Shown here: positions 347-39,064 of the stretch, one piece after another
How positions within the stretch are numbered: the first letter of the stretch is position 1
Layout: each line of letters starts with the position of its first letter
Origin: an uncultured Prevotellaceae bacterium
Lineage (GTDB): Bacteria; Bacteroidota; Bacteroidia; Bacteroidales; Muribaculaceae
Direction of reading: 5' to 3'
DNA: 64,000 bases
Assembly: GCA_900319525.1 (NCBI GenBank)
Contig: ONOU01000007.1
Coordinates: 1-64,000 of the forward strand
Notes under the pieces: generated by a model
Database searches by the model: none
The model's input: only the letters and a program-made list of their open reading frames with translations
Told to the model about the DNA's origin: nothing
Program-made: the position numbers and the translations under genes

Positions 347-2617
347 ATGAAGAGATTCTTGTTTTTAACCGCATTGATAATTGCTTCGATGCAAGTGTTT
401 GGTGCCAATGTGGACCTGGCTACGGCCAAGGCAAGTGCCCAGCAGTTTGCTGCAGCCAAGATGGCAGCCAGCGGCAAATTGATGGCTCCGTCGGCTATTG
501 ACCTCAACCTAGTCAAGTTGGAGATGAACTCCGACCAGCCCGGCACCGCCGTGTATTACATCTTCAACACCGCCGACCATTTCATCATCGTCTCGGGTGA
601 TGACCGTGCCCGCACGGTACTCGCCTATGGCGATCGCCCCATGAAAGATGTCAACAGCATGCCTGCCAACATGAAGTATTGGCTCGGTGTCTACAAGCAG
701 GAGTTGGAGTATCTGCAGGCTCATCCCGAGATTGCCGCCGATCAGTCGCTCAATGCCGTTCCCACGAGGGGTGTCAGCGTCGAGCCGCTGCTCACGGCCA
801 TGTGGGATCAGCAGGAGCCTTATTACAACCACTGCCCGGTGTATAACGGCCAGTTGTGTGTGACGGGCTGCCCCGCCACCTCGTTGGCGATGGTGTTCTA
901 CTACTGGAAATTCCCCGTGGGCCCTGTGCCCGCTGTGAATGGCTATAACAACTATAGCTACGGTTTCCAGGTTGAAGCTTTGCCCGGAACGACCTTTGAC
1001 TGGGAGAACATGATCGACGATTACAGGTCTGGTTATACCGAGGCCCAAGCCGATGCAGTGGCATGGCTGATGCGCTACATCGGTCAGGAAGAGCAGATGG
1101 ACTACACGCCCACGGGCAGCGGCGCCTATGGCAGCGACATCCTGCGTGCCGTCAAGTTCTTCGGCTATAACAGCGAGACGGCTGAGATCTATTACAAATA
1201 CTCCTATGTCGACGGCTATGACGCAACAGACGACACCTATCATATCAACTGGGGCTGGAGTGGCGATTATAACTGCTACTGCGCGCTAAATGCCTTCAGT
1301 GACGGTGAGTACAACTTTACCGAAGACCAGCAGATGGTCATCGGTATCCAGCCGCCCTATCTGGGTCCGACGATTACCACCAGCGCCCTGAACATGGCCA
1401 TCGAGTCCTATGCCGAGAAGTCGGCCACTCAGGTGCTCTCGGTCTTTGGCTACTATCTGGACCATGACGTGACCGTTACCCTCGACGACCCCAATGGCGT
1501 TTACTCGATTGACGTTAATCATATCGCCTTGAGCGAGGTCGAGAGCGGCAAGGACATCACCATCACCTATGCTCCTCAGGAGGTGGGTTCCCACAATGCC
1601 ACCATCACCCTGAGCAGCGAGAATGCCGAGGACGTAGTGGTCAGCATCGTGGGCACGTCGTTGTTTGAGACACACGATCCCATCATGTTTGAGGCCAACG
1701 AGGACTTCATCAAGCTCACCGAGTTCCGTGCCGACTGGACCGACGAGACTCCAGCCAAGAACGTTGAAAGTTACACACTTGAGGTGGCTACTAAGCCCAT
1801 AACTGCTTTGCTGGGAGAAACTGACTGGAGCGATTTGACTTACAGTAGTTATAGTGTGATTTCTCACTGGCAGGATTACTTCCCTGAGGGTTGGACTTAT
1901 GATGGCCGTCAGCTGTTCACCGGCAACGGTTACCTCCAACTGGGTTCCGGCGGTGGCATCATCACGCCGCAGTATGACCTGACGGGATATGAGAAGGTGA
2001 CTGTAGTGGTGCATGGTTCGGGTTACAACACATGGCGCCCAGCTGGTTTGACAGTATCAACTAGCCTTCAGTCAGAACACGTGGACATGCAGCCTGGTGA
2101 TTTCGTCGACTATGTCTTCGTGCTGGATTGCACCGAGAGCGAGCAGATTACCATCCGGGGTGACTATTATCCCAACGATTATGGCTGGATCGAGAGCATT
2201 CAGATTTATGCCGGCGATGCCAGCGAGCCCTCAAATCTCAGGGCCATCAACGAGGAAGGCGATGCCACCTACCGCCTCATCACCGGTATCACCCCCGACA
2301 AGTTCTACACCGTTAAGAACCTGACTGCCGGTGGCACCTTCTTCTTCCGTGTGAAGGCCCATTACACCGATGACACCTGGAGTCCTTGGAGCAAGGCCAA
2401 GACCGTTGTTCTCGCTGGAGAAGGCCACGGCTACTCAATCGGCGACGTGGACCATGATGGCAATGTGAACATCAGCGACGTGACAGCTCTGATTGACTGC
2501 CTGTTGGGTAGCCAGGAAGACGCATGTCTCATCTGTGCAGATGTCGATCTTGACGGCAAAGTAACGATTACTGATGTCACCGAATTGATTGATATGCTTC
2601 TTGCTGGGGGCAATTAA
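347..2617 (+). CDS. C10 family peptidase paralog lacking the catalytic His (dockerin-ended)
   Basis: A 756-aa secreted protein: signal peptide 1-19, C10 propeptide ~20-140, C10 catalytic region ~145-335, Ig-like domain ~345-435, Fn3 halves flanking a jelly-roll-like insert ~440-690, and a two-repeat dockerin-like end ~698-756. The nucleophile motif TGCPATS is present (Cys175), as is the NWGWSG motif (301-306). The block carrying GHAFN with the catalytic His is missing. Compared with the paralog at 20385, 48 residues are absent between Lys284 and the VDGY motif, with the frame kept. Knowledge of streptopain (Cys/His dyad) implies an inactive or altered enzyme. A hairpin terminator follows. ATG 347 gives a good signal peptide. 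Confidence 0.93.
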   Translation: MKRFLFLTALIIASMQVFGANVDLATAKASAQQFAAAKMAASGKLMAPSAIDLNLVKLEMNSDQPGTAVYYIFNTADHFIIVSGDDRARTVLAYGDRPMKDVNSMPANMKYWLGVYKQELEYLQAHPEIAADQSLNAVPTRGVSVEPLLTAMWDQQEPYYNHCPVYNGQLCVTGCPATSLAMVFYYWKFPVGPVPAVNGYNNYSYGFQVEALPGTTFDWENMIDDYRSGYTEAQADAVAWLMRYIGQEEQMDYTPTGSGAYGSDILRAVKFFGYNSETAEIYYKYSYVDGYDATDDTYHINWGWSGDYNCYCALNAFSDGEYNFTEDQQMVIGIQPPYLGPTITTSALNMAIESYAEKSATQVLSVFGYYLDHDVTVTLDDPNGVYSIDVNHIALSEVESGKDITITYAPQEVGSHNATITLSSENAEDVVVSIVGTSLFETHDPIMFEANEDFIKLTEFRADWTDETPAKNVESYTLEVATKPITALLGETDWSDLTYSSYSVISHWQDYFPEGWTYDGRQLFTGNGYLQLGSGGGIITPQYDLTGYEKVTVVVHGSGYNTWRPAGLTVSTSLQSEHVDMQPGDFVDYVFVLDCTESEQITIRGDYYPNDYGWIESIQIYAGDASEPSNLRAINEEGDATYRLITGITPDKFYTVKNLTAGGTFFFRVKAHYTDDTWSPWSKAKTVVLAGEGHGYSIGDVDHDGNVNISDVTALIDCLLGSQEDACLICADVDLDGKVTITDVTELIDMLLAGGN

Positions 2618-2645
2618 GGCTATCATTCTTATCGGGACGCGATTT

Positions 2646-2685
2646 CAGGGTTTGGGCATTCATGTGCCCGAACCCTGTTTTTCTT
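2646..2685 (+). terminator. Rho-independent terminator after first C10 gene
   Basis: Arms CAGGGTTTGGGCA and TGCCCGAACCCTG (2646-2677, 6-nt loop) are followed by TTTTTCTT. Confidence 0.85.
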
Positions 2686-2757
2686 TAAGTGTTCATGCCC
2701 GTTGCTGCAATGGTATGATAGCTCAGCGGGGGTATGTATGCGTATTTTGCCTTTTGA

Positions 2758-2789
2758 TTTGCATAGGCGGTTGATTTTGTGTATCTTTG
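2758..2789 (+). promoter_or_regulatory. Bacteroidota-type promoter of second C10 gene
   Basis: TTTG at 2758-2761, a 20-nt gap, then TATCTTTG at 2782-2789 fit the TTTG / TAnnTTTG consensus. The start codon lies about 57 nt after the predicted transcription start. Confidence 0.7.
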
Positions 2790-2852
2790 GGCGCACATTT
2801 CATCGATTAACGATACTAACCCTTACATACTAATTTTTAACCGGTATTATTT

Positions 2853-4994
2853 ATGAGAAGATTACTGATTCTTATCGCCCTCTTGTCAGCGGCGATGCAG
2901 GTAATGGCTGCCGACGTTAGCGTGTCGTCAGCGCAGTCGATGGCGCAGCGTTTCCTGGTGAACCGTTCAAGCAAGGGCAGCTTCAATGCTGCCACTCCCA
3001 CCGTCAAGTGGATCCATCAGGAGATGAACTCCAACCGCGCCAACAAGGCTGCTTATTATGTGGTGAACACCGACCGCGGCTTTGTCGTTGTTGCTGGTGA
3101 CGACCGCGCCCAGGAAATCCTTGCCTATGGTGACGGTTCGTTGAAGGACATGAGCAGCCTGCCCGAGAACATGAAGTTCTGGCTGGATACCTACAAGCAG
3201 CAGATGGAGTACCTCCAGGCCCACCCTGGGCTGGAAGTGGAAAAACCCTCTCTCAAGGGTAACCGCACCGAGAGCATCGAACCGATGCTCGTTGCCAAAT
3301 GGGACCAGGGCTATCCCTACTACAACCAATGCCCCATGGACGGTGACCGTCGCGGCTTGACGGGCTGCGCTACCACATCGCTGGCACAGGTGTTCTACAA
3401 GTGGCAGTATCCCACACAGCCCACCCCCGAGGTGCCTGGTTACACCACCCGTACCCGCCATTTCGAACTCTCGACATTGCCTCCCATTACCTTTGACTGG
3501 GCCAATATGCTGCCGGTGTACAATTATAGTGCAAACGATGCTCAGAAGAATGCCGTTGCCTGGCTCATGCGTTACATCGGTCAGGCCGAGCAGATGGATT
3601 ACACCAACGAGGGCAGCGAGGCCTGGGAGGACGACATCCTCAGGGCTTGCCACTTGTTTGGCTATGTGGATGCCCGTGTCGAGTACAAGGCCACCCTTAA
3701 CTTTGACACCAATGGCGAAAACATGCTCATCAATGACGCCGACTGGAGTGTGATGCTGCAGGATGAGCTCGCCGCCGGCCGCCCCGTGGTCTATTGCGCT
3801 TATAGCTACAGCAGTGCCTATAACTCGTTCTATGGCCATGCCTTCAATGTCGATGGCTATGATGTATCCAGTGGCATGTACTCCATCAACTGGGGCTGGA
3901 GCGGCACCGGTAACGGCTACTTTGCCCTGCGTGCCTTCAACAATCAGGGCTACAGTTACAGCCTGGGCGAGTTGATGGTCATGGGTATTGAGCCTCCTGC
4001 TCCTATCGAGGCCTATGATCCCGTGATGCAGCCCGTTGACAGCACTTACATCACCTTGACCTCGTTCCGTGCCAACTGGACCGATGAAACCCCTGCCGAG
4101 AACGTCACCAGCTACACGCTCGAAGTGAATACCGATGATGGCAGCGAGCCTGGCGTGTATGAGAAAGTCTTTACCGAGACCTTCGGTTACTGCACGAGCA
4201 ATGGTGACCGTCCAATCTCCAGACTTGACAGTTATTGCGACAACAAGGGCTGGACAGGAAGCAATGCCTATGAGGCTCGCGGCGGCATCCGCCTGGGCGG
4301 TGGCGGCAATGTCGGCACCCTCACCACGCCTGCCCTCGACATGGCCCAGAGCGGCGGCAAGATGACCGTCATGCTCACCATGCGTCCCCACACGACGGCC
4401 GATACTGATATTCCCGTTACCGTTTCATGTGGTAGCAGCGTGCAAAGCGTTGTTGTCAATGCCGATCAAATCTATACATTTGTGCTGAACTGTGAAGCTG
4501 ATGCTAATCAGAAGGTGACCATCACCGGTGGCGACGGCTCCAATACCAAGCGTGTTGTTGTTACCCAGGTGGACATCTACAGTGCTACAGCCGATGCCGC
4601 CAAGATGATGTTCACGCTCCCCGTCGAGGATGGTGACGAGAATAGCCGAGTGATTACCGATATCACCGACAAGTTCTACACCGTTAACGGCTTGGCCGAG
4701 GGTGGTACGTTCACCTATAGGGTGAAGGCCTACTATGTAAACGGCACCCAGAGCGCTTGGAGCAACATCGAGACCGTTACCCTGGTGGACAACGGCTCAG
4801 CACCTCATGAGTTTGAAGTGGGCGACGTGAACCACGATGGCTACATCAATATTGGCGACGTGACTACACTCATCGACTACCTGTTAGGCAATCCTGACGG
4901 CGTGTGCACGACTTGTGCCGACATCAACGGTGACACCAATATCAACATTGCAGATGTCACTGACCTGATTGACCGATTGCTTGCCGGTGAATAA
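2853..4994 (+). CDS. Secreted C10 (streptopain-like) cysteine peptidase with dockerin-like end
   Basis: A 713-aa preproprotein. It has a signal peptide 1-19, a propeptide to ~140, and a C10 domain with Cys172 (TGCATTS), His329 (GHAFNVDGY) and NWGWSG from Asn346, so all expected catalytic elements are present. Unlike its longer paralogs it passes directly from the peptidase domain (~375) into the Fn3-type module and lacks the intervening Ig-like domain. A jelly-roll-like segment (~435-585) interrupts the Fn3 module. The last ~58 residues are a dockerin-like pair of Ca-binding repeats (GDVNHDG, ADINGDT) joined by a CTTC segment. It has its own promoter and terminator. The likely role is extracellular protein degradation with surface tethering through the dockerin end; the tethering is inference. 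Confidence 0.95.
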   Translation: MRRLLILIALLSAAMQVMAADVSVSSAQSMAQRFLVNRSSKGSFNAATPTVKWIHQEMNSNRANKAAYYVVNTDRGFVVVAGDDRAQEILAYGDGSLKDMSSLPENMKFWLDTYKQQMEYLQAHPGLEVEKPSLKGNRTESIEPMLVAKWDQGYPYYNQCPMDGDRRGLTGCATTSLAQVFYKWQYPTQPTPEVPGYTTRTRHFELSTLPPITFDWANMLPVYNYSANDAQKNAVAWLMRYIGQAEQMDYTNEGSEAWEDDILRACHLFGYVDARVEYKATLNFDTNGENMLINDADWSVMLQDELAAGRPVVYCAYSYSSAYNSFYGHAFNVDGYDVSSGMYSINWGWSGTGNGYFALRAFNNQGYSYSLGELMVMGIEPPAPIEAYDPVMQPVDSTYITLTSFRANWTDETPAENVTSYTLEVNTDDGSEPGVYEKVFTETFGYCTSNGDRPISRLDSYCDNKGWTGSNAYEARGGIRLGGGGNVGTLTTPALDMAQSGGKMTVMLTMRPHTTADTDIPVTVSCGSSVQSVVVNADQIYTFVLNCEADANQKVTITGGDGSNTKRVVVTQVDIYSATADAAKMMFTLPVEDGDENSRVITDITDKFYTVNGLAEGGTFTYRVKAYYVNGTQSAWSNIETVTLVDNGSAPHEFEVGDVNHDGYINIGDVTTLIDYLLGNPDGVCTTCADINGDTNINIADVTDLIDRLLAGE

Positions 4995-5031
4995 TTGATA
5001 CAGGACTGAACACACAGGCAATAGTTTACTT

Positions 5032-5067
5032 AAATGGGCACCCGCACACTAAAGCGGATGCCCATTT
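5032..5067. terminator. Terminator hairpin after second C10 gene
   Basis: Arms AAATGGGCACCCGC and GCGGATGCCCATTT pair over 14 bp with one mismatch around an 8-nt loop. The A/T flanks make it potentially bidirectional. Confidence 0.7.
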
Positions 5068-5123
5068 ATCATAATCCAAAGAATCCAAATAATAAGGCTG
5101 AGTATCCGAATGGTAAGGTTGTA

Positions 5124-5154
5124 TTTGCTGTTTGGAAAAAAAAGTGTAATTTTG
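5124..5154 (+). promoter_or_regulatory. Promoter of the aminotransferase gene
   Basis: TTTG 5124-5127, N19, TAATTTTG 5147-5154. Transcription would start near 5161. An in-frame TTG at 5166 would then sit almost at the transcript end, which favours ATG 5214 as the true start. Confidence 0.75.
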
Positions 5155-5213
5155 CCGGTTGAAAATTGACAACTTCAATATCATTATCAAACAATAACAA
5201 GAACATCAGAATT

Positions 5214-6407: not shown

Positions 6408-6439
6408 ACAGCGTCATCTCAATACATAACCTTATACTC

Positions 6440-6478
6440 TACCGCTGGTTCTCCATCACATCAGGAGAGCCAGCGGTA
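6440..6478. terminator. Strong terminator hairpin after aminotransferase
   Basis: TACCGCTGGTTCTCC and GGAGAGCCAGCGGTA pair over 15 bp with one G-T position and a 9-nt loop. Confidence 0.8.
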
Positions 6479-6492
6479 TTATGCGGGAGAGG

Positions 6493-15128: not shown

Positions 15129-17543
15129 TTAGTTGCTACCCAACAGCATGTCAATCAAGTCGGTCACGTCGTCGATGCTTACATTGCCGTCGCCGTTAAC
15201 GTCGGCGCTGGCAGGAGCCTCACCGCCGGCGAGCAGGATGTCGATCAGGTCGGTCACGTCGTCGATGCTCACCTTGCCGTCGCCGTTAACGTCGCCCTTC
15301 AAGGTCTCGCCACCTTCCAGGGTCAGCACCTCCTTGTAGGAGCTCCAGTTGCTCTCGGTACCGTTCACGTAGTAGGATTTAACGCGATACAGGTAGGGAG
15401 TAGCAGGCAGCAGGCCGTTCACCGTGTAGAACTTGTCGGGGGTAATACCCTCGATCAGACGGTACTGGGCATCGCCAGTCTCGCTGGCAGCCTTCAGGCT
15501 GAAGGGCTCGGGATCGGTGATCTCACCACCATAAATCTTGATGCTCTGGATCTCGGGATAGTAGCCAGTGGTGAACTTGATGTATCCGTGCTGGCCAACT
15601 TCCAGTACTACCAGGTAGGTGTCGAGTTCCTTGGCCAGGGTCAACGTCTGGGAGCTGATGTCGGTAGCCACCTCGAGGGTCGTAGCGGCGCCCTTGGTGT
15701 AAGCCTTAGCGTTGATGATGACGCTAACAATGCCATAACCGGCCAGGTCGCAGTTCACATTGATGACCGAGTTGCGGCCAGGTGACAGGAAACCGCCATC
15801 CAGATACAGGTTGTTGCCGGTGAAGGTCCATCCCTCGGGCATATAGTTGGCGGCGTCGCTGGCATGGTTGGTGTTCTCCTTGGGAACGTCGCTCCAGTTA
15901 GCCTCGGTCAACAGGGTTACGTCGGGCTTGGCCATTACTTCCAGGGTGTAGCTGGTCACGTTCTCGACGGGAGTAGCATCGGTCCAGTCAGCACGGAACG
16001 AGGTAGCGGTAACGTACTCCTCGTTGGGAGCCTGCATCACGGGACGATACAACTCGTAAACCGAGGTGCCGTGAAGGGTGATCACAACGGGATCGGTGCC
16101 CGGAGTGGTGCAGGTGACGGTAGCAGTGTACTCGCCTTCGGTCAGGGGAGCATAGGTCACGTTGATGGCATTAGCGATCCTGCCTTCGGCATCGGGAGTC
16201 AGGGCATTATTGTCGATGCTGAACACACCGTTCTCGTCGTTGAGCGTTACCGTCACGTCACCCTCCAGGTTGCGGCCTGTGAGCTTGAAGCTGGCGGTAG
16301 CGGTGTTGTTCTTGAAGCACTCCATCGACAGCTCGCTCTTGTCGGCCTTGAGGCGCGGCGTCTTGATGGGAGGCTGGATACCGATGACCATCTGCTGGTA
16401 CTGGTTGAAGGTCGAACCACTACCGTTGAAGGCGTTCAATGCATAGTAGTTGTTGCTGTCGCCACTCCAGCCAAAGTTGATGTGATACTTGTTAGTGACA
16501 GAATCATAGCCGTCAACGTTGAATGCATGGCCACCGCCAAAGAAGCCACCAGCGATGGCGCAGAACACGATAGGACGACCCTCGGCGAGCTCTTCCTGGA
16601 TCATGGCAGCCCACTCAGCGTCGGTGTACAGGGTTGTGCCGCCACTGTAGGCGCTGGTCTTCTTGACCACGCGCACGGTCTCCTCGTCATAGCCGAAGAA
16701 CTTGAACGCGTCGGCAATGAGGCTAACGCTGTCGGCATTCACACCACTACCACCAGCGGCACTCGTGCCATACTCCATGCGCTCGGCCTGGCCGACGTAA
16801 CGCATCAGCGTGGCAACGGCGTCGGCCTGCGTTGTATTGTAACCTGTAGTGTAGCGGTCCAGCATATTTTCCCAGTCAAAGGTGACGGGGGGCAGTGCGT
16901 CAACGTTCACATAGCTGCCGCCATAGTAGCTCGTGCTCAAGTAGCACTTGTAGCCAGGAACCTCGGGGGTCTCAAAGTCGGGATACTTCCAGTAGTGGAA
17001 GACCATGGCTGCCGAGGTGGCGGGACAACCCGTCAGGCACTGGTTGCCATTGATCTTGCACTGGTTCCAGTAGGGAGCCTCCTGGTCCCACAATGCCGTG
17101 AGCAGCGGGTCAACCGACGCGATGCGCAACGACGGGGCCATCATCGACGGAGTCTCGACCTGCAAGCCCTCATGAGCCTGGAGGTACTCGATCTGCTCCT
17201 TGTAGGTGGCAAGCCAAGCCTTCATGTTGCAAGGGATGGTGTTGATGTCAAGGGGACGGTCACCATAGCCCAGAATCTCCTCGGCACGGTCATCACCCGA
17301 TACGATCACATAGCCGTTGCTGCTGTTGAAGATATAGTACACAGCACGATCCAGCATCTTGGAGTTCATCTCGGCATGAACCAGTTTCATCTCTCCAGAG
17401 ATGGGAGCACGCAGCTTGCCGCTATACAGCTTCTGCTGAACAAAATTCTGAGCCTGACGCTGGGCTGTCCTCATATCGACGGGGGCAGCTGACAGGCTGA
17501 TTGCCGCAAGCACAACTGCGGCACACAGTAAGATTCTTCTCAT
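15129..17543 (-). CDS. Secreted C10 cysteine peptidase with dockerin-like end
   Basis: 804 aa. Signal peptide 1-20, propeptide to ~140, and a C10 domain with Cys173 (TGCPATS), His339 (GGHAFNVDGY) and an NFGWSG motif near 356. An Ig-like domain (~395-490) and an Fn3 module interrupted by a jelly-roll-like insert (~500-735) follow. The end (~745-804) is a dockerin pair, GDVNGDGKVSIDDVTDLID and a near-identical second copy. Uniquely among the six dockerin-ended paralogs, its linker lacks the CxxC motif (it reads GEAPASADVN). Catalytic residues are intact. The 5' leader is long (~150 nt) if the promoter at 17700-17732 is used. Confidence 0.95.
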   Translation of the reverse strand: MRRILLCAAVVLAAISLSAAPVDMRTAQRQAQNFVQQKLYSGKLRAPISGEMKLVHAEMNSKMLDRAVYYIFNSSNGYVIVSGDDRAEEILGYGDRPLDINTIPCNMKAWLATYKEQIEYLQAHEGLQVETPSMMAPSLRIASVDPLLTALWDQEAPYWNQCKINGNQCLTGCPATSAAMVFHYWKYPDFETPEVPGYKCYLSTSYYGGSYVNVDALPPVTFDWENMLDRYTTGYNTTQADAVATLMRYVGQAERMEYGTSAAGGSGVNADSVSLIADAFKFFGYDEETVRVVKKTSAYSGGTTLYTDAEWAAMIQEELAEGRPIVFCAIAGGFFGGGHAFNVDGYDSVTNKYHINFGWSGDSNNYYALNAFNGSGSTFNQYQQMVIGIQPPIKTPRLKADKSELSMECFKNNTATASFKLTGRNLEGDVTVTLNDENGVFSIDNNALTPDAEGRIANAINVTYAPLTEGEYTATVTCTTPGTDPVVITLHGTSVYELYRPVMQAPNEEYVTATSFRADWTDATPVENVTSYTLEVMAKPDVTLLTEANWSDVPKENTNHASDAANYMPEGWTFTGNNLYLDGGFLSPGRNSVINVNCDLAGYGIVSVIINAKAYTKGAATTLEVATDISSQTLTLAKELDTYLVVLEVGQHGYIKFTTGYYPEIQSIKIYGGEITDPEPFSLKAASETGDAQYRLIEGITPDKFYTVNGLLPATPYLYRVKSYYVNGTESNWSSYKEVLTLEGGETLKGDVNGDGKVSIDDVTDLIDILLAGGEAPASADVNGDGNVSIDDVTDLIDMLLGSN

Positions 17544-20384: not shown

Positions 20385-22778
20385 TTAGTTCCCGCTCAGG
20401 AGCTTGTCAATCAAGCTGGTTACATCCGAGATGTTGACATTACCATCGCCATCAACGTCTGCGCAGGTCTCGCAGGCCTCACTGCCTGCGCCCAGCAACA
20501 TGTCGATGAGCGAGGTGACGTCCGAGATGTTGATCTGTCCGTCATGATTCACATCACCAGGTTGATGGTCTTGACCATTCCCAAACAGGGTCACGTTCTT
20601 GCTCTTGCTCCAGGCACTCTGGGTGCCATCGGTATAGAAGGCTTTCACCCTGTAGTAGAATGTGCCGCCGGCAGCGAGACCCGTTACCAGGTAGTGCTTG
20701 TCGGTCAAGCCTGTAACAATGCGGTAGTTGGCGTCGCCTTCCTCGGCAATGGCGCGTAGCATGGGCTCGTCGAGCTCGCCAGCATATATCTGGATGCTCT
20801 GGAACTGCGGGTAATTGCTCTTGCCGGCAAACGTTACCTGGTCAATCTCCTCGCAATTGAGCACAGCGACAAATCGGGTGAAATCGGCGCCTGCATTGGC
20901 GGTGAATTCCTTCGAATCCACGCTGGTCGAGACGGTAAATCTGGAATTGCTGCTGGTCAAAACCGACTTGGCAGTAACCACAACCGTTACCTTCTCAAAA
21001 CCTGCCAGATCATAGTTGGGCGTGGCAAAGGAGCTCTTGTTGTTGATCGAGATGCCCCCAGCCTCGCGCCACAGGCCGTTACCAGCAAAGGTCCAGCCTT
21101 GAGGCAGGATGGCACCAGGATTGTCCGAATAATTGGTGCCCATCTCGGTCACCTCGCTCCAGTCCACTTCGTCAAGCAGGGCGGCACCCGGCTTGGTGTT
21201 GACTTCCAGGGTGTAGCTCTCGACATACTTGTCAGCAGTCAGATCGGTCCAGTCGGCACGGAATTGAGTCAAGGTGACATAGGCGCTGTCGGCGGGCAGC
21301 ATCACCGGGTCGTGGGTCTCCAGAGCGGCCTCGCCGTGGAGTGTGATGATTACATCCTCGGCCTCGGGGCTGCTAAGGGTTATCGTGGCGTTGTGGGTGC
21401 CGCTGTACTGGGGCGCATAGGTCACGGTGATTTCCTTGCCTTCGGCGGTCTCGGCGACATCAACACTGCTGGCATCCAGCGAGAAAACGCCATTCTCATC
21501 GTGGAGCGTCAATGTTACGGCATCAGTCAGGTATTTACCCTTGACGGTAAAGGTGGTTACATCCGTTTTCTCGGCAAGCGCCTGCATGTTGATTTGCACG
21601 GGCGATACCTTGATGGTGGGGGTCGTGATGGGCGGTTGCAGGCCCTTGATGATCAACTGCTCGACGTTGAACGTGTAGTCGCCATAGGTGAACGCGTTTA
21701 GTGCGAAGTCGCCGTTGCCTTCACCACTCCAGCCCCAATTCACGTGATAGGTGTTGTCGATAGCATTGTAGCCGTCAACGTTAAAGGCGTGTCCGCTCCA
21801 GCCATACCAGCTATCGTAGTCATAGGCACAATAGACCAGAGGACGGCCCTCGCTCAACTCGGTCTGTATCAGTTCGGCCCAGTCGGCATCGTTGATCAGC
21901 TCAGTCTCGCTGCCATAGTAGTCGGCAGTCGCCTTGTACACGACCTCGGCGTCCTCGTCGTAGCCGAAGAACTTGACGGCCCTCAGGATATCCTCACCCT
22001 GGGCTCCGCTGCCCTCAGGGCTGTAATCCATTTGCTCGACTTGCCCGATGTAGCGCATGAGCCATGCCACGGCATCGGCCTGGGCCTCGGTGTACTCCAC
22101 GCCCTCATATTTGTCGAGCATGTTGTCCCAGTCAAACGTGATGGAAGGTAGGGCGGGCAAACGGGTGCCGATGCTCGTTGCGGTGTAGGACTCCACTTCG
22201 GGGGTGGGTTCCTTGGGGTACTTCCAGTAGTAGAATACCATCGACAGCGAGGTGGCGGGGCATCCCGTAAGGCAGTACTCGCCGTTATAGACGGGGCAGT
22301 GGTTGTAATAGGGCTCCAGCTGGTCCCACTCGGCAGTGAGCAGCGGGGCAATGGTGTGTGCCCTCATGCTCGTGCTGGCTTTGGGCTTTTCGACAACCAG
22401 TCCGGGATGGGCCTGGAGGAACTCGATTTGGCGCTTATAGGTGCTCAGCCAGTACTTCATGTTGGCAGGCATGTGATTCATGTCCAGGGGGCGGTCGCCA
22501 TGGGCCAGGATTTCCTGGGCACGGTCGTCACCGGCCACGATGACAAAACTGTTATCGGTGTTGAAGATGTAATAGACGGGAACACTGGTGAGGCTGGAAT
22601 TTGCTTCGGCGTGAAGCAGCTTGATGTCGGCAGGCGTACTGCTGAGCCGCTTCCCGTTGTCATGGCGGTCGATAAAACGTTGTGCTGTGGCTTGTGCCAT
22701 AGCCAGATCCACATTAGCCGCTACAGCCTGCATCACGGCAAGCACTAGCAGCGAGGTAAAGAATAACATTCTCTTCAT
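20385..22778 (-). CDS. Secreted C10 cysteine peptidase with dockerin-like end
   Basis: 797 aa from ATG 22778; an in-frame TTG two codons upstream is not needed. Signal peptide 1-20, propeptide to ~140, and a C10 domain with Cys173, His330 (GHAFNVDGYN) and NWGWSG from Asn347. Then come an Ig-like domain, a split Fn3 with jelly-roll insert, and a dockerin pair (GDVNHDGQINISDV, ADVDGDGNVNISDV) with the EACETCAD linker. This is the closest in-window relative of the His-less copy at 347-2617 and the best reference for defining that deletion. No clear consensus promoter is seen upstream; TATATTCG at 22858-22865 is one mismatch away. Confidence 0.95.
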   Translation of the reverse strand: MKRMLFFTSLLVLAVMQAVAANVDLAMAQATAQRFIDRHDNGKRLSSTPADIKLLHAEANSSLTSVPVYYIFNTDNSFVIVAGDDRAQEILAHGDRPLDMNHMPANMKYWLSTYKRQIEFLQAHPGLVVEKPKASTSMRAHTIAPLLTAEWDQLEPYYNHCPVYNGEYCLTGCPATSLSMVFYYWKYPKEPTPEVESYTATSIGTRLPALPSITFDWDNMLDKYEGVEYTEAQADAVAWLMRYIGQVEQMDYSPEGSGAQGEDILRAVKFFGYDEDAEVVYKATADYYGSETELINDADWAELIQTELSEGRPLVYCAYDYDSWYGWSGHAFNVDGYNAIDNTYHVNWGWSGEGNGDFALNAFTYGDYTFNVEQLIIKGLQPPITTPTIKVSPVQINMQALAEKTDVTTFTVKGKYLTDAVTLTLHDENGVFSLDASSVDVAETAEGKEITVTYAPQYSGTHNATITLSSPEAEDVIITLHGEAALETHDPVMLPADSAYVTLTQFRADWTDLTADKYVESYTLEVNTKPGAALLDEVDWSEVTEMGTNYSDNPGAILPQGWTFAGNGLWREAGGISINNKSSFATPNYDLAGFEKVTVVVTAKSVLTSSNSRFTVSTSVDSKEFTANAGADFTRFVAVLNCEEIDQVTFAGKSNYPQFQSIQIYAGELDEPMLRAIAEEGDANYRIVTGLTDKHYLVTGLAAGGTFYYRVKAFYTDGTQSAWSKSKNVTLFGNGQDHQPGDVNHDGQINISDVTSLIDMLLGAGSEACETCADVDGDGNVNISDVTSLIDKLLSGN

Positions 22779-22933
22779 AAGCAACGTGTCGTTTAATTGA
22801 TTTATAGTTAATGCTTAACGTTAATTCCTTTATTCGTTCTTACCGGATTCGATTGTGCGAATATATCCAAAAAATCTAGAATAGGCAATGTTTTAGCTAA
22901 AAATCCTGCAGTTTTCTTTTTTCCCCCAGAAAA

Positions 22934-22992: not shown

Positions 22993-25392
22993 TCAATTGC
23001 CTTTGCTCAACAGCATGTCGATCAGGGCTGTTACATCTGCGATATTGATGTCGCCCTGGCCGTCAACGTCGGCACAGGTCGTGCATACACCGTCAGGATT
23101 GCCCAGCAGGTAGTCGATGAGCGTAGTCACGTCGGAGATGTTGACACCGCCGTCATGGTTCACGTCACCCACAGCAAACTCGTGAGGAGCAGGACCGTTA
23201 TCAAACAGGGTAACCATCTCCTTATTGCTCCAGGCGCTCTCGGTACCGTCGGTGTACAGGGCCTTCACCTTATAGAGGAAGGTGCCGCCTTCAACCAGGT
23301 TATTAACGGTGTAGAACTTGTCGGTGATGCCGGTGATCAGGCGATAGGTCTCGCTACCCTGCTCTTCAATGGCCTTGAGTTGGGGAGCGGTCATCTCACC
23401 AGTGTAAACCTTAATGCTCTGAATCTCGGGATAGTAGGTCTCGGAGAAAATCTCGATTCTCTCGTTCCCATTGCAATTCAAGACAACGGTGTAGTCGGCA
23501 TAGTCGTTAGCAAACTCAACGTACTTGCTGTCAACGCTGTTCTTCACCGAGATGGCCGAATTGGTCCAGGTATAGCAGTTCTTGCCCCTGACAACAACGG
23601 TCACCTTGTCATAGCCGGCAAGGTCAAGCACGGGTGTGTAGAGGCTGTAACCGCTGGAAATCGAGATGCGGCCACCCTCCAGGTAAACGCCACCATTGTA
23701 CACCCATCCCTCGGGCATATAGTCGGCGGCGTTGCCCGACGAGGGCACCTCGCTCCAGTCGGCTTGTGCGATCAGGCCGCTGGTGGGCTTCTCGCTCACC
23801 TCAAGGGTGTAGCTGGCAACGTTCTCGGGCACGGTCTGGTCGGTCCAGTTGGCGCGGAAAGAGCTCAGGGTGATGTTGGCGCTGTCGGCAGGCAGCATCA
23901 CGGGGTCATAAACCACCAGCGGTGCAACAGTGGCGGTGCCCTTGAGGGTAATGACCTTGGCATCAGCGCCCTCGCTCGTCAAGGTGATAGTGGCATTGTG
24001 GGTGCCGACAGCCTGGGGTGCATAGGTCACAATAATCTTGGCATTACCCACCTGGTCGAGAGCGATGGCATTGGCATCGATCGAGAAGACGCCGTTCTCG
24101 TCATCAAGCGTTACGTTGATGCCCTCGGTCAGGTATTGACCCTTCACGGTGATGGTGTCATTGACGGTTTCGCCGGCATAGCACTCCATATTCACGTTCT
24201 GCTTGTCAACCAGGATGCGGGGATCGGTCGAGAGGCCGGGGGGCTGCACGCCAACGTACATCGAAGGCCAGAAATCATAAACTATCATGCCGTCGATTCT
24301 GAAAGCGTCCAGTGCATAGAAGGCGTTCAATTCCGAGCGCATACCAAAGTTCACGTGATACAGGTCATTGGTGGCGTCATAGCCGTCAACGTTGAATGCG
24401 TGGCCTGCGATACCTGTCGAGTCACTGGACATGTCAAATGCACAATAAACCAGCGGACGTCTGGCAACCAGCTCTGACTGGATCAATTCGGCCCACTCAT
24501 CGTCGGTGTAGTTCTGAGTGGGATCGGACATGCTCTCAAAGAAGTTGTACTGCAATACATAGTGGGCACCCTCATCATAGCCGAAGGTCTGGAGGGCTTG
24601 GGCAATGTATTCATTTCCCGTACCGCTCTTGTCGGTATTGTAGTCAATGTTCTCGGCCTGGCCCACATAGCGCATGAGCCATGCGATAGCGTCTTTATTC
24701 ACTTCGGGCAAGCGGTCGATGTCAACGTCCTCATAGGTGTCCCACATGTTCTCCCAGTCAAAGGTGTACTCGGGCAGGGCAGGGACATTGATCTTGGAAT
24801 CGGGGCATTGATATCCGTCCATGGCGGGAGCCTTCTCGGGATATTCCCAGTATTTCATCACTTGAGCTAGCGATGTGGCGGTGCAGCCGGTCTTGCAATA
24901 GTCGCGGCCGACCTTGGGACAGCGCATGTTGTAAGGCTTGTCTTGTGCCCAGGCGGTCTGTAGCAGCGGCTCAACCGAAACGCCGCCACTCTTGATGTTC
25001 TTGTTGACGATGAGACCCGGATGAGCCTGGAGGTACTCCATCTGAGCCTGGTACAGGTTCAAGAAGAACTGCATGTTGTCAGGGATGTCGTTCAAGTCGG
25101 TAAGGGGCTTGTTGCCGTAGGCGAGGATCTCGCGGGCACGGTCATCACCAGCCACGATGACGTAACCCTTGTCGGTGTTGACGATGTAGTAAGCTGCCAT
25201 AGCGGCATTGCTTGAGTTCTTTACCTCGTGGGTCCACTTTACCGTGGGTGCCGAGGTCATCAGGCGACCATGTGAGGTCTTGTTGTGCAAGAATTTGGCG
25301 GCTTTGGTCTGGGCTGTTGATAAGTCAACATTGCCAGCCATTACCGATGTTGCCGCGAGCAGTGTGGCAGCAAGAAGCAGTAATTTCCTCAT
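22993..25392 (-). CDS. Secreted C10 peptidase with degenerate Asn/Trp motif, dockerin-ended
   Basis: 799 aa from ATG 25392; an in-frame TTG three codons upstream was discarded. Signal peptide 1-19, propeptide to ~138, and a C10 domain with Cys170 (TGCTATS) and His331 (GHAFNVDGYD). Where paralogs read N(W/F)GWSG it reads NFGMRSE (348-354), so the Trp that packs on the catalytic pair in streptopain-type enzymes is lost. An Ig-like domain, split Fn3 with jelly-roll insert, and a dockerin pair with a GVCTTCAD linker follow. The dockerin end closely matches that of the 2853-4994 gene on the other strand. Activity is uncertain. Confidence 0.93.
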   Translation of the reverse strand: MRKLLLLAATLLAATSVMAGNVDLSTAQTKAAKFLHNKTSHGRLMTSAPTVKWTHEVKNSSNAAMAAYYIVNTDKGYVIVAGDDRAREILAYGNKPLTDLNDIPDNMQFFLNLYQAQMEYLQAHPGLIVNKNIKSGGVSVEPLLQTAWAQDKPYNMRCPKVGRDYCKTGCTATSLAQVMKYWEYPEKAPAMDGYQCPDSKINVPALPEYTFDWENMWDTYEDVDIDRLPEVNKDAIAWLMRYVGQAENIDYNTDKSGTGNEYIAQALQTFGYDEGAHYVLQYNFFESMSDPTQNYTDDEWAELIQSELVARRPLVYCAFDMSSDSTGIAGHAFNVDGYDATNDLYHVNFGMRSELNAFYALDAFRIDGMIVYDFWPSMYVGVQPPGLSTDPRILVDKQNVNMECYAGETVNDTITVKGQYLTEGINVTLDDENGVFSIDANAIALDQVGNAKIIVTYAPQAVGTHNATITLTSEGADAKVITLKGTATVAPLVVYDPVMLPADSANITLSSFRANWTDQTVPENVASYTLEVSEKPTSGLIAQADWSEVPSSGNAADYMPEGWVYNGGVYLEGGRISISSGYSLYTPVLDLAGYDKVTVVVRGKNCYTWTNSAISVKNSVDSKYVEFANDYADYTVVLNCNGNERIEIFSETYYPEIQSIKVYTGEMTAPQLKAIEEQGSETYRLITGITDKFYTVNNLVEGGTFLYKVKALYTDGTESAWSNKEMVTLFDNGPAPHEFAVGDVNHDGGVNISDVTTLIDYLLGNPDGVCTTCADVDGQGDINIADVTALIDMLLSKGN

Positions 25393-25568
25393 AAATAGCA
25401 AGTTAATGGTTTAAAATGTGATTAAAATATTGTAGTTAGTATCCTTTTCTTACCTTTGAGCGTGCTAAGTTACTAATAAATAGGTGATAATAATTCAATT
25501 TCCGCCTTTTTTTCGTCAATTTGACTGAAAAAAAACGGAAACCGGTGAATGTGATCCCTGCTGGGTGA

Positions 25569-33696: not shown

Positions 33697-33710
33697 TGTA
33701 TATTTGAGTT

Positions 33711-34325: not shown

Positions 34326-34364
34326 GTTGATGCGTAGTAATGATATCTTCTATATTTGAGGGTG

Positions 34365-34395
34365 CAAAAGTAAAGAAAACTTTTAAAACTCCAAA
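34365..34395 (-). promoter_or_regulatory. Promoter of the TetR-RND efflux operon
   Basis: Minus strand: TTTG 34395-34392, N19, TACTTTTG 34372-34365, a full match to the Bacteroidota consensus 40 bp before the tetR start. Confidence 0.8.
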
Positions 34396-34404
34396 AGTTT
34401 TCTT
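34373..34404. promoter_or_regulatory. Candidate TetR operator: perfect 12-bp inverted repeat
   Basis: AAGAAAACTTTT (34373-34384), an 8-nt spacer and AAAAGTTTTCTT (34393-34404) are perfectly complementary. The repeat covers the whole spacer and -33 element of the operon promoter, a typical repressor site position. Confidence 0.75.
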
Positions 34405-34449
34405 GGTTTTTGTGCGCGATCAGGTATGAATTATAGGCCTTTAACAAAG

Positions 34450-34481
34450 TGAGGGCGGTGCCAGCACTGGCACCGCCCTCA
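34450..34481 (-). terminator. Hairpin after giant C10 peptidase gene
   Basis: TGAGGGCGGTGCCAG and CTGGCACCGCCCTCA form a perfect 15-bp stem with only 2 bases between. The T-rich tail is weak. Confidence 0.7.
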
Positions 34482-34528
34482 TGGTCAGTGATCGCTCTCA
34501 GGGTAATCCCTGAATAGCGTTAGTGGCT

Positions 34529-37500
34529 TTAATACAGCACTTTGCTGCTCTTTACAGCACCGCTCTTGTAGCGAACAACCTTGATGTTGACGCCCTCAAA
34601 CGGTTCCTTGCTCTGCATACCCGACATGTTGACGTAGGTAATCGACTCAATCTCATCACCATCGGCAACAATCGAGTTGATTGCGGTGTTGGGATTGAAG
34701 TTCATGCTAAGCAGCGTTACCTCTTGGGTATTGCTGGTAGCGGTGGTGCCGTCAACATAGTTGGCAACCAGATAGTAGGAGTAAGTGCCTCCCTCAACCA
34801 GATTGCTCAGGGTAATGCCTGCCGAGCCGGCTTCGATGTCGGTGATCACAAAGTCGGTGTTGTCGCCCGTTGCCGTAGCATTGAGGTTCAACGTGCCGGC
34901 ATAGATGCAGATGAGTGCCATATCAGGCGAGTAGCTGTTGTCGGTCGAGTAGATGGTGATCTTGTCACCAGCGCTGCCGGTTACGGTCCAGGTGTAGGTC
35001 TCACCCTTGGTGAAGGTGTGGCCCACTGCCGAGGTCTTGGCCGACTTCACAGTGATGTTGCCTGTGCCATAGCTGGTATTGGCCGTCGTGATCTGGATAG
35101 TGAAGGTTGCATTGCTGTAACCCGACGGGATGGTGAATGTGATGTTACCATAGCTGGTGCTCCACCACGATGTCGAGTTCTTGGTGTAGATGGCACCGTT
35201 TCCTGCCCTCACGTTGCTGCCGCCCCAAGGCGAGGTCAGCGAGATGCTGGCATAGCTGCCGGTGTAGTTGCTGCCGTCGAGGCTGCCCAGCAGGGTCGAG
35301 GTGGGCTCGTCGCCACCCTCGGGCTGAGCGGTCAGCTTGCCATACAAGGTATAGCTCGAAACGCTTGATGCATCAACATCGTGAGTCCAGTTGGCGGTGA
35401 AGCTGGTGCTGCTGATGTTGGTGGCATCTGTCAGCACGGGATCAGCCTTGTTGATGGTAGCGTTACCGGTGAGGGCAACGGTCTTGCTTGCAGCACCCTC
35501 GCTGGCGATGGTCACGGTAGCGGTCTGTGAACCATAAGCCGTGGGAGCATAGGTTACGGTGACGTTCACGCCGTTAGCGGCATTGGCTGCGGTGATGGTC
35601 GTCGGCGAGATGCTGAAGACGCTGGCACCGCTCAGGCTCAGGGTAACATTGCCGGTCAAGTCGGCGCCGGTTACCTTGAAGGTGGCCGTCTTGGTTGCCC
35701 CCACGTTGGCCGTCATGCTCAGGCTGGCAGGTGTTACCGTCAGGGTCGGGGTAGCAGCGGGCTCCTCGTCCTTGAGGGTGACGGTCTGCTCGTTACTCCA
35801 GGCACTCTCGCTGCCATCGGTGTAGATGGCCTTCACCTTATAGGTATAGGTGGCGGCTGTCGTCAGGCCGGTGACGGTGTAGTACTTGTTGGTGATGCCG
35901 GTGATGGTGCGGGCACTGGAGTCGCCGCTCTCGCTGGCATTCAATGTCGTGTTGCCTGCATAGACCTGAATCATCGTCATGTCGGGTGAGTAGCTGCTAT
36001 CGGTCGTGGTCAGGGTGATCACGTCGCCTGCGCTACCGGTAACAATCCAGGTATAGGTCTCATTCTTGGCGAAGGTGTGGCCTACAGCCGTGGTCTTGGT
36101 GGACTTAACGGTAACATTACCGGTGCCATAAGAGTTGTTTGAAGTGGTGACCTTCACGCTGAAGGTTGCGTTGCTGTAACCCGAAGGAATCGTGAAGGTG
36201 ATCTTGCCGCTCTTGGTGAAGTAAACGGCACTGTTACCGCCCTTGACGTTGCTGCCGCCCCACGGTGAGGTCAGCGAGATGGTCTTGTAGCTGCCGGTGT
36301 AGCTGCTGCCATCGATGGTGCCCAGCAGGGTGGTGCCGGTTGACGGAGTGGTACCGCCCTGGCCGTTCACTTGCAGGGTGTAGCTGGCCACGTTGGCACT
36401 GGCGGTCTGGTCGGTCCAGTCAGCACGGAAGCTGTTGGTGGTGACGTAGCTGCTGTTGGCGGCGCTCATCACGGGAGTGTAGGTCGTGATGGGTGCGGTG
36501 GTAGCGGTACCCGTCAGGGTGACGGTCTTGCTCTCAGCGCCTGAGCTGGCAATGGTGATGGTGCCCGTCTGGGTACCTGTTGCCGTGGGCTTGTAGGTTA
36601 CTGTCACGTTCACGCCATTTGCGGCATTAGCGGCCGTGATAGAGGTGGTCGAGATGGTGAAGACGCTCGAGCCGCTCTTGGTCAAGGTCACGTTTCCGGT
36701 GAGGTCTGCACCCGTTACCTTGAAGGTGGCGGTAGCGGTCTCACCCGTGTAGGCTGTCATGCTCAGCGTTGCGGGAGTCACGGTGAGGGTGGGAGTTGCC
36801 ACAACTTCCTCCTCTTTCAGGGTAACTTCCTGCTCGTTACTCCATGCGCTCTGACTACCGTCGGTGTAGATGGCTTTCACCTTATAAACAAATGTGCCGC
36901 CCGTCTTCAGGTTGTTAACGGTGTAGTACTTGTTGGTGATGCCAGTGATGGTGCGGCTGGTCTCACCGCCGGTCTCGCTGGCTGCCAGCATATTGAGTGA
37001 GGAGGCGTCGCCAGCATAAATCTCGATGTTGCTTATACTGATGTAGTTGCTCGTGGAACCGATGGTCACCTTGTCGCTGGATGAGCAGTCGAGAACAAAT
37101 GTGTACTCGGTGTTGGTGTCGCTCAGGGCCTGCGTCTTGCTGGCGCTACCCGTGGCCACACTCAGCGTGGCGTTGCCATAGTAGCTCGAGTAGTAGGAGT
37201 AAGCTTTCACCTTGACGGTCACCTTGCTGTAGCCGCTCAGGCTGTAGGTGGGCGATACCAGGTTGCCACCGGTGATGAGCATGCCAGTGTTGGCATACAC
37301 ATAGGTGGATGCGGTCCAACCCGTGCCCAGGTAGCTGGTGATGTTGCTCGACACGTCACTCAAGTAGCCGTCCGAGGTGGTGACTTGCGTCACACCGCTC
37401 AGGTCGATGTCAGCCAACTGAGTGGTGGCGGGAGTGCTGCCCTTCTCGGTCACTTGCAGGGTGTAGCTGGCCACATTGCTGCTGGTGGTCTGGTCGGTCC

Positions 37501-39064
37501 AGTTGGCGCGGAAGCTGTTGGTGGTGATGTAGCTGCTGTTGGCGGCGCTCATCACGGGGGTGTAGGTCTCGAGGGCTGCTGCCGTGGCAGTACCGCTCAG
37601 CGAGACGGCCTTGCTGGTAGCGCCGCTGCTGGCGATGGTGATGCTGCCAGTGTGGGTGCCGGCTGCCGTGGGATTGTAGGTCACGGTAACGGTGGCGCCG
37701 CTGGCGGCAGCACTGGCGCTGATGGTTGTCGGCGAAATGGTGTAGGCGCTATTGGCATCAGTCTTGGTCAGCGTCACGTTGCCGGTGAGGTTGGTGCCAG
37801 TAACGGTGAACGTCTTGCTCACGGTCTGACCTGCAGTGGTGCTGAAACTCAGCGAGGTGGGGCTAACGCTTAAGGTGGGAGTTGCGCTGGCGCCACTGGG
37901 CGGCTGGATACCGATGACCATCTGCTGATATACGTTGAAGTTGTAGCTGCTGTAGCCGAAGGAGTTCAGCGAGCACCAGGCGTTGCCGTCGCCACTCCAA
38001 CCGAAGTTGATGTGGTACTTGTTGGTGCTGCTGTTGTAACCGTCAACGTTGAAGGCGTGACCACCGGCATTGGAGCTCACGGCGCAGAAGACGATAGGAC
38101 GGCCAGCGGCCATCTCCTCTTGGATTAGCGCTGCCCACTGGCTGTCGCTGTACAGCGTGGTGCCGCCACTGTAGGCACTGGTCTTCTTGACAAAGCGCGT
38201 AGTGCTCGAGTCATAACCAAAGAAGGTGAAAGCGTCGCGAATGTTGCAAACACTGTCAACACTCACACCGCTACCATCGGTACCATAACCCATACGCTCG
38301 GCCTGGCCAACGTAGTGCATCAGTGTGGCAACAGCGTTACCCTGAGCGGTCGTGTAGCTGCCGGTGTAGTCGTCAAGCATGTTGGCCCAGTCAAAGGTTG
38401 TCGAGGGCAGGGCCGAGTGGGTGTAGCTCTTTGAACTATAGCTTCCCGTGCTGATGGTTGACTTGTAACCAGGAACAACGGGAGTTGGATCTGTTGGATA
38501 TTTCCAGAAGTAGAACACCATCGAGGCCGACGTGGCGGGGCAGCCCGTCAAGCACTGGTAGCTACCAAACTTGCACTGGTTGTAATAGGGCGCCTGCTGG
38601 TCCCAGTTGCAGGTCAGCAGGGGACCGTAGGTAGTGGCGCGCAGCGACGGGGTGCCGGGAGGAATCGCCATCGGGTTGCCGTGCAGTCCCGGATGCTCTT
38701 GCAGGAACATGATCTGATCCTTGTACTGGCCCAGCAGGTCGCGCAGGCCCAGTGGCAGGTTGTTCACGTCTTTCAGGGGACGGTCGCCCACCATGAGGAT
38801 TTCCTCGGCGCGGTCGTCACCGGCGACAACGACAAAGGTCGTTGCTGTGTTGTAGATGTAATAGACGGGCTCGTTGATTTTTGCTTTGCCCATCTCGGCC
38901 TTGAGCAACACTGGTTGAAGTGCTGCAGGGGCCATTACCTTGCCAGCATAGTGCTGACTCAAGAAATTTTGTGCTTTTCTCATGGCTGTGGCCTGATCAA
39001 CAGGAGCAGCCGATAGAGACATTGCCATAATCGCGGCAGTTAGGAAAAATAGAATTTTTTTCAT
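34529..39064 (-). CDS. Giant secreted C10 cysteine peptidase with repeated Ig/Fn3 modules and T9SS-like tail
   Basis: 1511 aa, about twice its paralogs. Signal peptide 1-19, propeptide to ~145, and a C10 domain with Cys175 (TGCPATS), His336 (GGHAFNVDGY) and NFGWSG, so catalytic residues are intact. Three Ig-like modules (each beginning TPTLxVxPxxLS) and split Fn3 modules follow. Two of the inserts are near-duplicates (SLTSPWGGSNV ... FTIPSGYSNATF ... SYGTGN). There is no dockerin. The last ~45 residues (TYVNMSGMQ ... GVNIKVVRY ... KSSKVLY) match the tail of the fragment at 2-280 and suggest T9SS-type secretion and anchoring. It has its own promoter and terminator. Confidence 0.95.
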   Translation of the reverse strand: MKKILFFLTAAIMAMSLSAAPVDQATAMRKAQNFLSQHYAGKVMAPAALQPVLLKAEMGKAKINEPVYYIYNTATTFVVVAGDDRAEEILMVGDRPLKDVNNLPLGLRDLLGQYKDQIMFLQEHPGLHGNPMAIPPGTPSLRATTYGPLLTCNWDQQAPYYNQCKFGSYQCLTGCPATSASMVFYFWKYPTDPTPVVPGYKSTISTGSYSSKSYTHSALPSTTFDWANMLDDYTGSYTTAQGNAVATLMHYVGQAERMGYGTDGSGVSVDSVCNIRDAFTFFGYDSSTTRFVKKTSAYSGGTTLYSDSQWAALIQEEMAAGRPIVFCAVSSNAGGHAFNVDGYNSSTNKYHINFGWSGDGNAWCSLNSFGYSSYNFNVYQQMVIGIQPPSGASATPTLSVSPTSLSFSTTAGQTVSKTFTVTGTNLTGNVTLTKTDANSAYTISPTTISASAAASGATVTVTYNPTAAGTHTGSITIASSGATSKAVSLSGTATAAALETYTPVMSAANSSYITTNSFRANWTDQTTSSNVASYTLQVTEKGSTPATTQLADIDLSGVTQVTTSDGYLSDVSSNITSYLGTGWTASTYVYANTGMLITGGNLVSPTYSLSGYSKVTVKVKAYSYYSSYYGNATLSVATGSASKTQALSDTNTEYTFVLDCSSSDKVTIGSTSNYISISNIEIYAGDASSLNMLAASETGGETSRTITGITNKYYTVNNLKTGGTFVYKVKAIYTDGSQSAWSNEQEVTLKEEEVVATPTLTVTPATLSMTAYTGETATATFKVTGADLTGNVTLTKSGSSVFTISTTSITAANAANGVNVTVTYKPTATGTQTGTITIASSGAESKTVTLTGTATTAPITTYTPVMSAANSSYVTTNSFRADWTDQTASANVASYTLQVNGQGGTTPSTGTTLLGTIDGSSYTGSYKTISLTSPWGGSNVKGGNSAVYFTKSGKITFTIPSGYSNATFSVKVTTSNNSYGTGNVTVKSTKTTAVGHTFAKNETYTWIVTGSAGDVITLTTTDSSYSPDMTMIQVYAGNTTLNASESGDSSARTITGITNKYYTVTGLTTAATYTYKVKAIYTDGSESAWSNEQTVTLKDEEPAATPTLTVTPASLSMTANVGATKTATFKVTGADLTGNVTLSLSGASVFSISPTTITAANAANGVNVTVTYAPTAYGSQTATVTIASEGAASKTVALTGNATINKADPVLTDATNISSTSFTANWTHDVDASSVSSYTLYGKLTAQPEGGDEPTSTLLGSLDGSNYTGSYASISLTSPWGGSNVRAGNGAIYTKNSTSWWSTSYGNITFTIPSGYSNATFTIQITTANTSYGTGNITVKSAKTSAVGHTFTKGETYTWTVTGSAGDKITIYSTDNSYSPDMALICIYAGTLNLNATATGDNTDFVITDIEAGSAGITLSNLVEGGTYSYYLVANYVDGTTATSNTQEVTLLSMNFNPNTAINSIVADGDEIESITYVNMSGMQSKEPFEGVNIKVVRYKSGAVKSSKVLY

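Follow-up and report, generated by a model that had tools for sequence, protein, structure and literature searches.

A putative peptidase-rich cohesin-dockerin display system with T9SS-like anchors in an uncultured Muribaculaceae bacterium

Introduction

A case comparable to the system proposed here is that of ScaE/ScaC in Ruminococcus flavefaciens. Single-cohesin anchoring at the cell surface is also described in Ruminococcus albus (PMC6118326). The genome that we analysed shares with R. albus many dockerins, few cohesins and, likely, a single-cohesin surface anchor; it differs in that the host is Gram-negative with an outer membrane, the anchor is a T9SS-like tail and the cargo is rich in peptidases (PMC6118326). 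In Candidatus Stygibacter (Cloacimonadota), C-terminal dockerins are predicted on secreted enzymes, including S8 and C25 peptidases, together with a cohesin scaffoldin whose conserved CTD would serve surface attachment (PMC8542988). Dockerin-bearing peptidases and a cohesin protein with a putative CTD-type anchor are predicted in both. However, Stygibacter belongs to another phylum, and its description names one scaffoldin of 3755 aa and four dockerin enzymes, whereas here we found 122 dockerin ORFs, diverged cohesins, candidate single-cohesin anchors and tail swaps (PMC8542988). A surface peptidase complex built on cohesin-dockerin pairs, the planctosome, has been hypothesised for freshwater Planctomycetes (PMC6461901); it has a Lamin-tail anchor and other peptidases, and the passages describing it leave T9SS unmentioned.

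Dockerins are also present, as here, in reported rumen Bacteroidota (PMC9863278, PMC7480376, PMC6071333), where their role has been left undefined or termed non-amylosomal (PMC7480376, PMC9863278); for rumen Prevotella it is called undefined (PMC7480376). The rumen Muribaculaceae C941 is said to have dockerins and to lack cohesins, and rumen Prevotella with both are on record (PMC9863278). Bins 49 and 58 of camel-rumen Bacteroidetes have 11 dockerins and 0 cohesins (PMC6071333), and PMC5831590 gives neither for its Bacteroidetes genome. Cohesins have already been reported in Prevotella UBA3846 and in bins 129 and 136 (PMC9863278, PMC6071333); cohesins in rumen Bacteroidetes are not new as such.

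Results

The window, that is the whole stretch of 64,000 nucleotides analysed (contig ONOU01000007.1), carries seven C10 peptidase paralogs and a further tailed fragment:

2..277 (+): C-terminal fragment of a further protein, its gene truncated at the contig start, carrying a KVIK-type tail
347..2617 (+): C10 paralog with I69 propeptide, Ig module and C-terminal dockerin, without the His block (Pfam, alignment)
2441..2602 (+): dockerin module of 347..2617
2853..4994 (+): C10 paralog with C-terminal dockerin, one Ig module missing (Pfam)
4821..4982 (+): dockerin module of 2853..4994
15129..17543 (-): C10 paralog with C-terminal dockerin (Pfam)
15141..15299 (-): dockerin module of 15129..17543
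17875..20235 (-): C10 paralog with C-terminal dockerin (Pfam)
17887..18045 (-): dockerin module of 17875..20235
20385..22784 (-): C10 paralog with C-terminal dockerin (Pfam)
20397..20561 (-): dockerin module of 20385..22784, also modelled
22993..25401 (-): C10 paralog with C-terminal dockerin (Pfam)
23008..23169 (-): dockerin module of 22993..25401
34529..39064 (-): giant C10 of 1511 aa, in which Ig/Fn3-like modules are repeated and a T9SS-type tail replaces the dockerin
34535..34747 (-): T9SS-type (KVIK-type) tail of the giant, by homology to KVIK-type tails

Pfam recognises Peptidase_C10 and the I69 propeptide family in all seven paralogs, and Dockerin_1 is matched above its cut-off in six of them (E 6e-7 to 2e-11) and not in the giant. 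The division drawn in the preliminary description, six C10 peptidases with a dockerin and one with a sorting-type tail at the same position, is thus borne out, the end of the giant sharing homology with KVIK-type tails found in this genome. Of the modules that the description held to be shared, the C10 domain and the propeptide were recovered in 7/7 paralogs; those between the C10 domain and the C-terminal end are Ig/Fn3-like, and Fn3 stays below the Pfam cut-off wherever it is listed. The model of the dockerin of 20385..22784 reaches a pLDDT of 85; when its fold is compared with the PDB, dockerins take all of the first 36 places. C10 Cys and His motifs, with roles that we presume from streptopain, occur with an I69-type propeptide in six of the seven. 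The exception, 347..2617, is without a 34-residue block that holds the catalytic-His motif and is kept in 8/8 aligned relatives; judged from the alignment, its peptidase is probably inactive (a dead paralog), or the gap is an assembly error.

The giant reaches the NCBIfam choice-of-anchor-D cut-off, and a TIGR04183 scan gave no match at its C-terminal end. A model of its tail is of low confidence (pLDDT 61); compared with the PDB, this model places RemA-CTD and RemZ, which are chains from T9SS complexes, first (E 0.42) and third (E 0.47) among 510 matches. The 2..277 fragment scores 16.9 bits with TIGR04183, below the cut-off of 23. The window encodes further tailed proteins. Immediately downstream of a C10 gene, 14588-14899 (-) encodes a 103-aa protein made up almost entirely of a signal peptide and a T9SS tail of type A (27.6 bits with TIGR04183), and at 45933-47636 (+) an endonuclease I protein has a T9SS tail only; a second endonuclease I protein of the genome (L169, G000:C33) has a dockerin and then a T9SS tail.

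Throughout the genome (3.28 Mb, 54 contigs, 94.5% complete), we counted 123 Pfam Dockerin_1 matches in 122 distinct ORFs. These dockerins, like those of the window, are of type I, with two calcium-loop/helix repeats, on secreted enzymes. The dockerin ends at most 20 residues from the C-terminus in 100/122 ORFs and starts within the first 70 residues in 10/122, one of these genes being truncated at a contig end. In L216, L217, L194, L146, L153, L181, L222, L140, L179 and L223 the dockerin lies near the N-terminus or far from the C-terminus, and several N-terminal or mid-chain dockerins precede large domains. By a crude rule, 118/122 ORFs have a signal-peptide-like start. Six show a lipobox-like match, of which one was judged convincing; the background rate of such matches (6/49) is itself crude and was left out of the argument. 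The cargo, assessed with Pfam on the first 410 aa of the 122 ORFs, includes the peptidase families C10 (22), M6 (6) and S8 (5), next to LRR_5 (19), CotH (7) and alpha-amylase (4), and no cellulase family appears in the best 25 of 59 cargo families. Among the 28 C10 genes of the genome (three partial rows excluded), a dockerin is recognised near the end by profile in 25, two of these matches being partial; the remaining three have a degenerate dockerin (by eye), unknown bases, and the T9SS-type tail of the giant, respectively.

We then considered the cohesins. Up to E 1, neither of two cohesin profiles matched any ORF of the window, and Pfam Cohesin (PF00963) matched none of the whole proteins of the genome. 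A search with a cohesin-like domain that adjoins a dockerin in L002 nevertheless retrieved relatives, five of them, in four proteins, in the genome itself:

C24a, C24b: in LRR proteins, L150
C19a, C19b: in one protein, L208
C31: L231, with signal peptide, one cohesin and tail; the simplest (minimal) receptor candidate

Scanned alone, C19a is a Pfam Cohesin (28.9 bits for a cut-off of 24.1, E 1.5e-6), unlike the whole C19 protein, which is silent in the same scan. Cohesin is also the sole Pfam match of C31 alone, below the cut-off (20.5 bits, E 6e-4), and C19b, C24a and C24b scanned alone gave no Pfam Cohesin match. Aligned as a set to 27 Pfam cohesins from across the order (30 loci less L244, L248 and L256, left out for stops in the frame read), the five domains gave an hhalign probability of 95.7 and an E of 1e-8. 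Against 1000 shuffles with this order profile, C19a and C24b scored clearly above, C31 barely above, and C19b and C24a did not exceed them. Moreover, a 34-member profile of the cohesin family gave 13 PDB matches at E up to 10, the best five being the cellulosomal scaffoldin chains 5n5p, 6kgc, 6kg8, 5m2o and 5aoz (E 2.7e-4 to 0.031); 5n5p alone lies below E 0.001, and scaffoldin chain 5m2s is seventh. Viral contigs yielded no relative of these cohesins. The five domains thus appear to be cohesin homologues too diverged for standard annotation. We rejected the statement that cohesins are absent from the genome, since PF00963 on whole proteins misses diverged cohesins. The earlier observation that no cohesin is visible is correct for the window and fails for the genome, where C19a and its four homologues provide, by sequence, the putative cohesin partner looked for. 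With these homologues, and with scaffoldins of 4-6 cohesins in relatives, the premise of a cohesin-free, non-cellulosomal role of the dockerins does not stand.

Each of the genome's four cohesin proteins has a T9SS-like tail at its end, though the support is uneven. The tails of C24a and C31 match a KVIK-tail profile built in this analysis and gave no T9SS match in the NCBIfam scan. For the tails of C19 and C24b, TIGR04183 is the sole NCBIfam match, at 18.5 and 13.6 bits for a cut-off of 23. Over the seven receptor tails scanned, TIGR04183 was the best NCBIfam match in five, at 13.6-21.1 bits and never reaching 23, and Pfam recognised a T9SS tail in none. The receptor tails are likely T9SS tails, though below standard cut-offs. 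SprA, the T9SS translocon, is present in the genome (2676 bits).

To place these proteins among relatives, 297 genomes of the family were surveyed with dockerin and cohesin profiles, 68 from the same genus and 229 others. Each of the 68 genus members scored 20 or more dockerins, with scoring stopped at 21, and one or more cohesins, with first-look dockerin candidates ranging from 47 to 318 and cohesins from 1 to at least 14 per genome. Among the 229 others, dockerins occur in 76, mostly one or two, and cohesins in 62; G294, dockerin-rich and 85% complete, gave no cohesin match with the family profiles. Strong C31 orthologues (E below 1e-28) are found in 30/68 genus members, the own genome included, and in 0/229 others. 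A recognisable tail is missing in 12 of these 30, two of which have a stop inside the match; the C31 orthologues without a recognisable T9SS tail are L364 and L366-L376, and most end at its expected start. Of the 294 genomes of the order, 80 have Pfam cohesins, 106 have dockerins and 278 have SprA. Pfam cohesins are found in 12/16 dockerin-rich genomes (8 or more dockerins scored) versus 68/278 others (Fisher 6e-5, uncorrected for descent). Co-occurrence with SprA was rejected as a test, because all 16 dockerin-rich genomes have it but so do 278/294 genomes of the order.

The family loci fetched hold 127 distinct cohesin ORFs, of which three are cut at the 3' end and 124 were assessed; these loci were picked by score, and the fractions are no census. 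After the last cohesin, 81 of the 124 have a tail of 40-95 aa, 27 end in a dockerin, 11 stop shortly after the cohesin and 5 end otherwise. The 81 tails were judged T9SS-like by eye, save a few that were scanned, and that of L371 is not CTD-like. In relatives, scaffoldins are encoded at ten loci; nine of them have six cohesins and the tenth has four, and every one has a C-terminal dockerin and adjoins a tailed dockerin-cohesin protein. One of these neighbouring anchor tails was scanned and gave 21.1 bits with TIGR04183. At these loci (L377-L386), the anchor beside the scaffoldin has a third dockerin type (NVTDVMCVANYIVG), unlike the enzyme and scaffoldin dockerins. Small cohesin-dockerin adaptors also occur in relatives. 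In L295, L300 and L312, a signal peptide, a cohesin and a dockerin are followed by an end that resembles, by eye, an FGE-sulfatase domain, a domain that also follows dockerins in L155 and L217 of the own genome.

One could imagine that the cohesin-like domains act only in cis or homotypically, and that the enzyme dockerins bind something else or nothing. Cohesin and dockerin do adjoin in many cohesin proteins (among the 81 tailed ORFs, the arrangement is DC in 33 and CDC in 18), and many family genomes with one or two dockerins also have a cohesin. Some cohesins may indeed act in this manner, since a dockerin is also present in three of the genome's four cohesin proteins and the domain is found in 62 of 229 mostly dockerin-poor genomes. 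As a general account, however, it seems unlikely: 22 tailed ORFs have one cohesin and zero dockerin (two are cut at the 5' end, and L371 is without a CTD-like tail), the ten scaffoldins have 4-6 cohesins for a single dockerin, and the scaffoldin dockerin shares its type with the enzyme dockerins of scaffoldin genomes and differs from the anchor's own.

Evidence that the two kinds of end replace each other comes from related C10 genes. The bodies of L071, L083 and L072 are 93-95% identical over 723-724 residues, and 99-100% identical across the last 100 residues before the junction, whereas their tails are only 12-36% identical: a type-B dockerin in L071, a type-A dockerin in L083 and a T9SS-type tail in L072. 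L108 and L111 are the reverse case, with tails 93% and bodies 76% identical. In a quick tree of the C10 sequences, the two T9SS-tailed members lie apart, each among dockerin-tailed rows, so that two changes are needed; several long branches are unsure and shuffled labels also need two changes, and the tree shows only that these two are not neighbours. Five of the 74 C10 loci (L053, L081, L088, L103, L112) have no usable C-terminus. The C-terminal tail is a swappable module. Of the proposal that the swap reflects one and the same job, the interchangeability of the tails holds, with surface retention as the likeliest job served by both ends, and the non-cellulosomal, cohesin-free part is lost.

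The same swap could mean, in line with the preliminary description, that the T9SS or some other surface factor reads the dockerin directly, as a signal for sorting or retention, with no cohesin involved. It does occupy the position of the T9SS-type tail, near-identical bodies carry either tail, and SprA accompanies dockerins in 16/16 dockerin-rich genomes of the order, though it is found in nearly all others too. However, cohesin homologues exist in the genome and the genus, and the position is not fixed, nine dockerins starting within the first 63 residues and some lying mid-chain. Moreover, some chains have a dockerin together with a T9SS-like tail (twice in L150, and in L169 and L208), and the dockerin model is helical whereas the tail model is beta. 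We consider such a direct signal quite unlikely.

The dockerin types themselves suggest recognition by a partner. Among the top-scoring dockerins compared, type A (T[SA].D.T..YN) accounts for 20/20 from nine scaffoldin genomes and type B (D..x[LM]I) for 20/20 from fourteen genomes chosen by their C31 orthologue alone, with zero overlap between the genome groups. The scaffoldin's own dockerin is of type A, like the enzyme dockerins of the scaffoldin genomes and unlike the anchor's dockerin. The A/B split may follow phylogeny, and shared descent can explain part of it. Within the own genome, the helix motifs of 105 dockerins with both repeats read are T in both repeats in 68, N in both in 36 and mixed in 1; the window dockerins are of the TT type. 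Paired calcium-loop-like motifs are kept, as they would be if the dockerin were a partnerless, calcium-binding end cap that stabilises secreted proteins. Yet the helix motifs hardly vary between unrelated proteins, their two types are matched between repeats, and they change with the genome group, which makes a mere cap highly improbable. Matching between repeats and genome-specific typing would be expected of a binding module with few partners.

Discussion

The reading that we favour, and hold to be fairly probable, is a peptidase-rich cohesin-dockerin display with T9SS-anchored receptors, in which the giant C10 peptidase is anchored directly; the binding and the surface location are what we infer from sequence. 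The window would represent part of the cargo of this system. In this rumen bacterium of the Bacteroidales, about a hundred secreted proteins, many of them peptidases, end in a type I dockerin, which would plug, with calcium, into a cohesin on a protein with a T9SS-like C-terminal tail. Because of this tail, the cohesin proteins would be exported and fixed at the outer surface. Some relatives would have a second layer, formed by a scaffoldin that has 4-6 cohesins and a dockerin of its own. The giant, because it carries a T9SS-type tail itself, would skip docking and take the direct route.

Sequence features of the dockerin proteins do not account for their passage across the outer membrane, since they have a Sec-type start, mostly no lipobox and, a few exceptions apart, no T9SS tail. 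We speculate that a dockerin protein might leave docked on a cohesin-CTD carrier: it would fold in the periplasm, dock on the carrier, and the pair would exit through the wide SprA translocon. The dockerin would in that case be a hitch-hiking tag and the C31-type carrier a dedicated export adaptor. We regard this route as possible but doubtful, and capture from outside of proteins that leave by another route is a simpler alternative.

Under the favoured display model, the genome would hold a cohesin-dockerin system and not a cellulosome. We do not file it as a cellulosome because no multi-cohesin scaffoldin was found in this 94.5% complete genome, where a chain has at most two cohesins, and because the cargo is not dominated by cellulases. 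That five cohesin-like domains stand there for 122 dockerin ORFs, with no multi-cohesin scaffoldin, speaks against the display model. What is new is the diverged cohesin family, its T9SS-like anchors, the scaffoldins and the tail swaps; in the literature searched, with subscription papers mostly outside it, we came across neither T9SS-anchored cohesins nor this Bacteroidales cohesin family.

If the genus is C941, the negative result for cohesins in C941 would be overturned. The candidate dockerin partners described here escape standard models when whole proteins are scanned, and they are apparently tied to the T9SS. We therefore propose a surface-display system that can be put to the test and has about a hundred candidate clients in one genome; it would link two fields, secretion and anchoring, and it offers natural tail-swap variants and several dockerin types.
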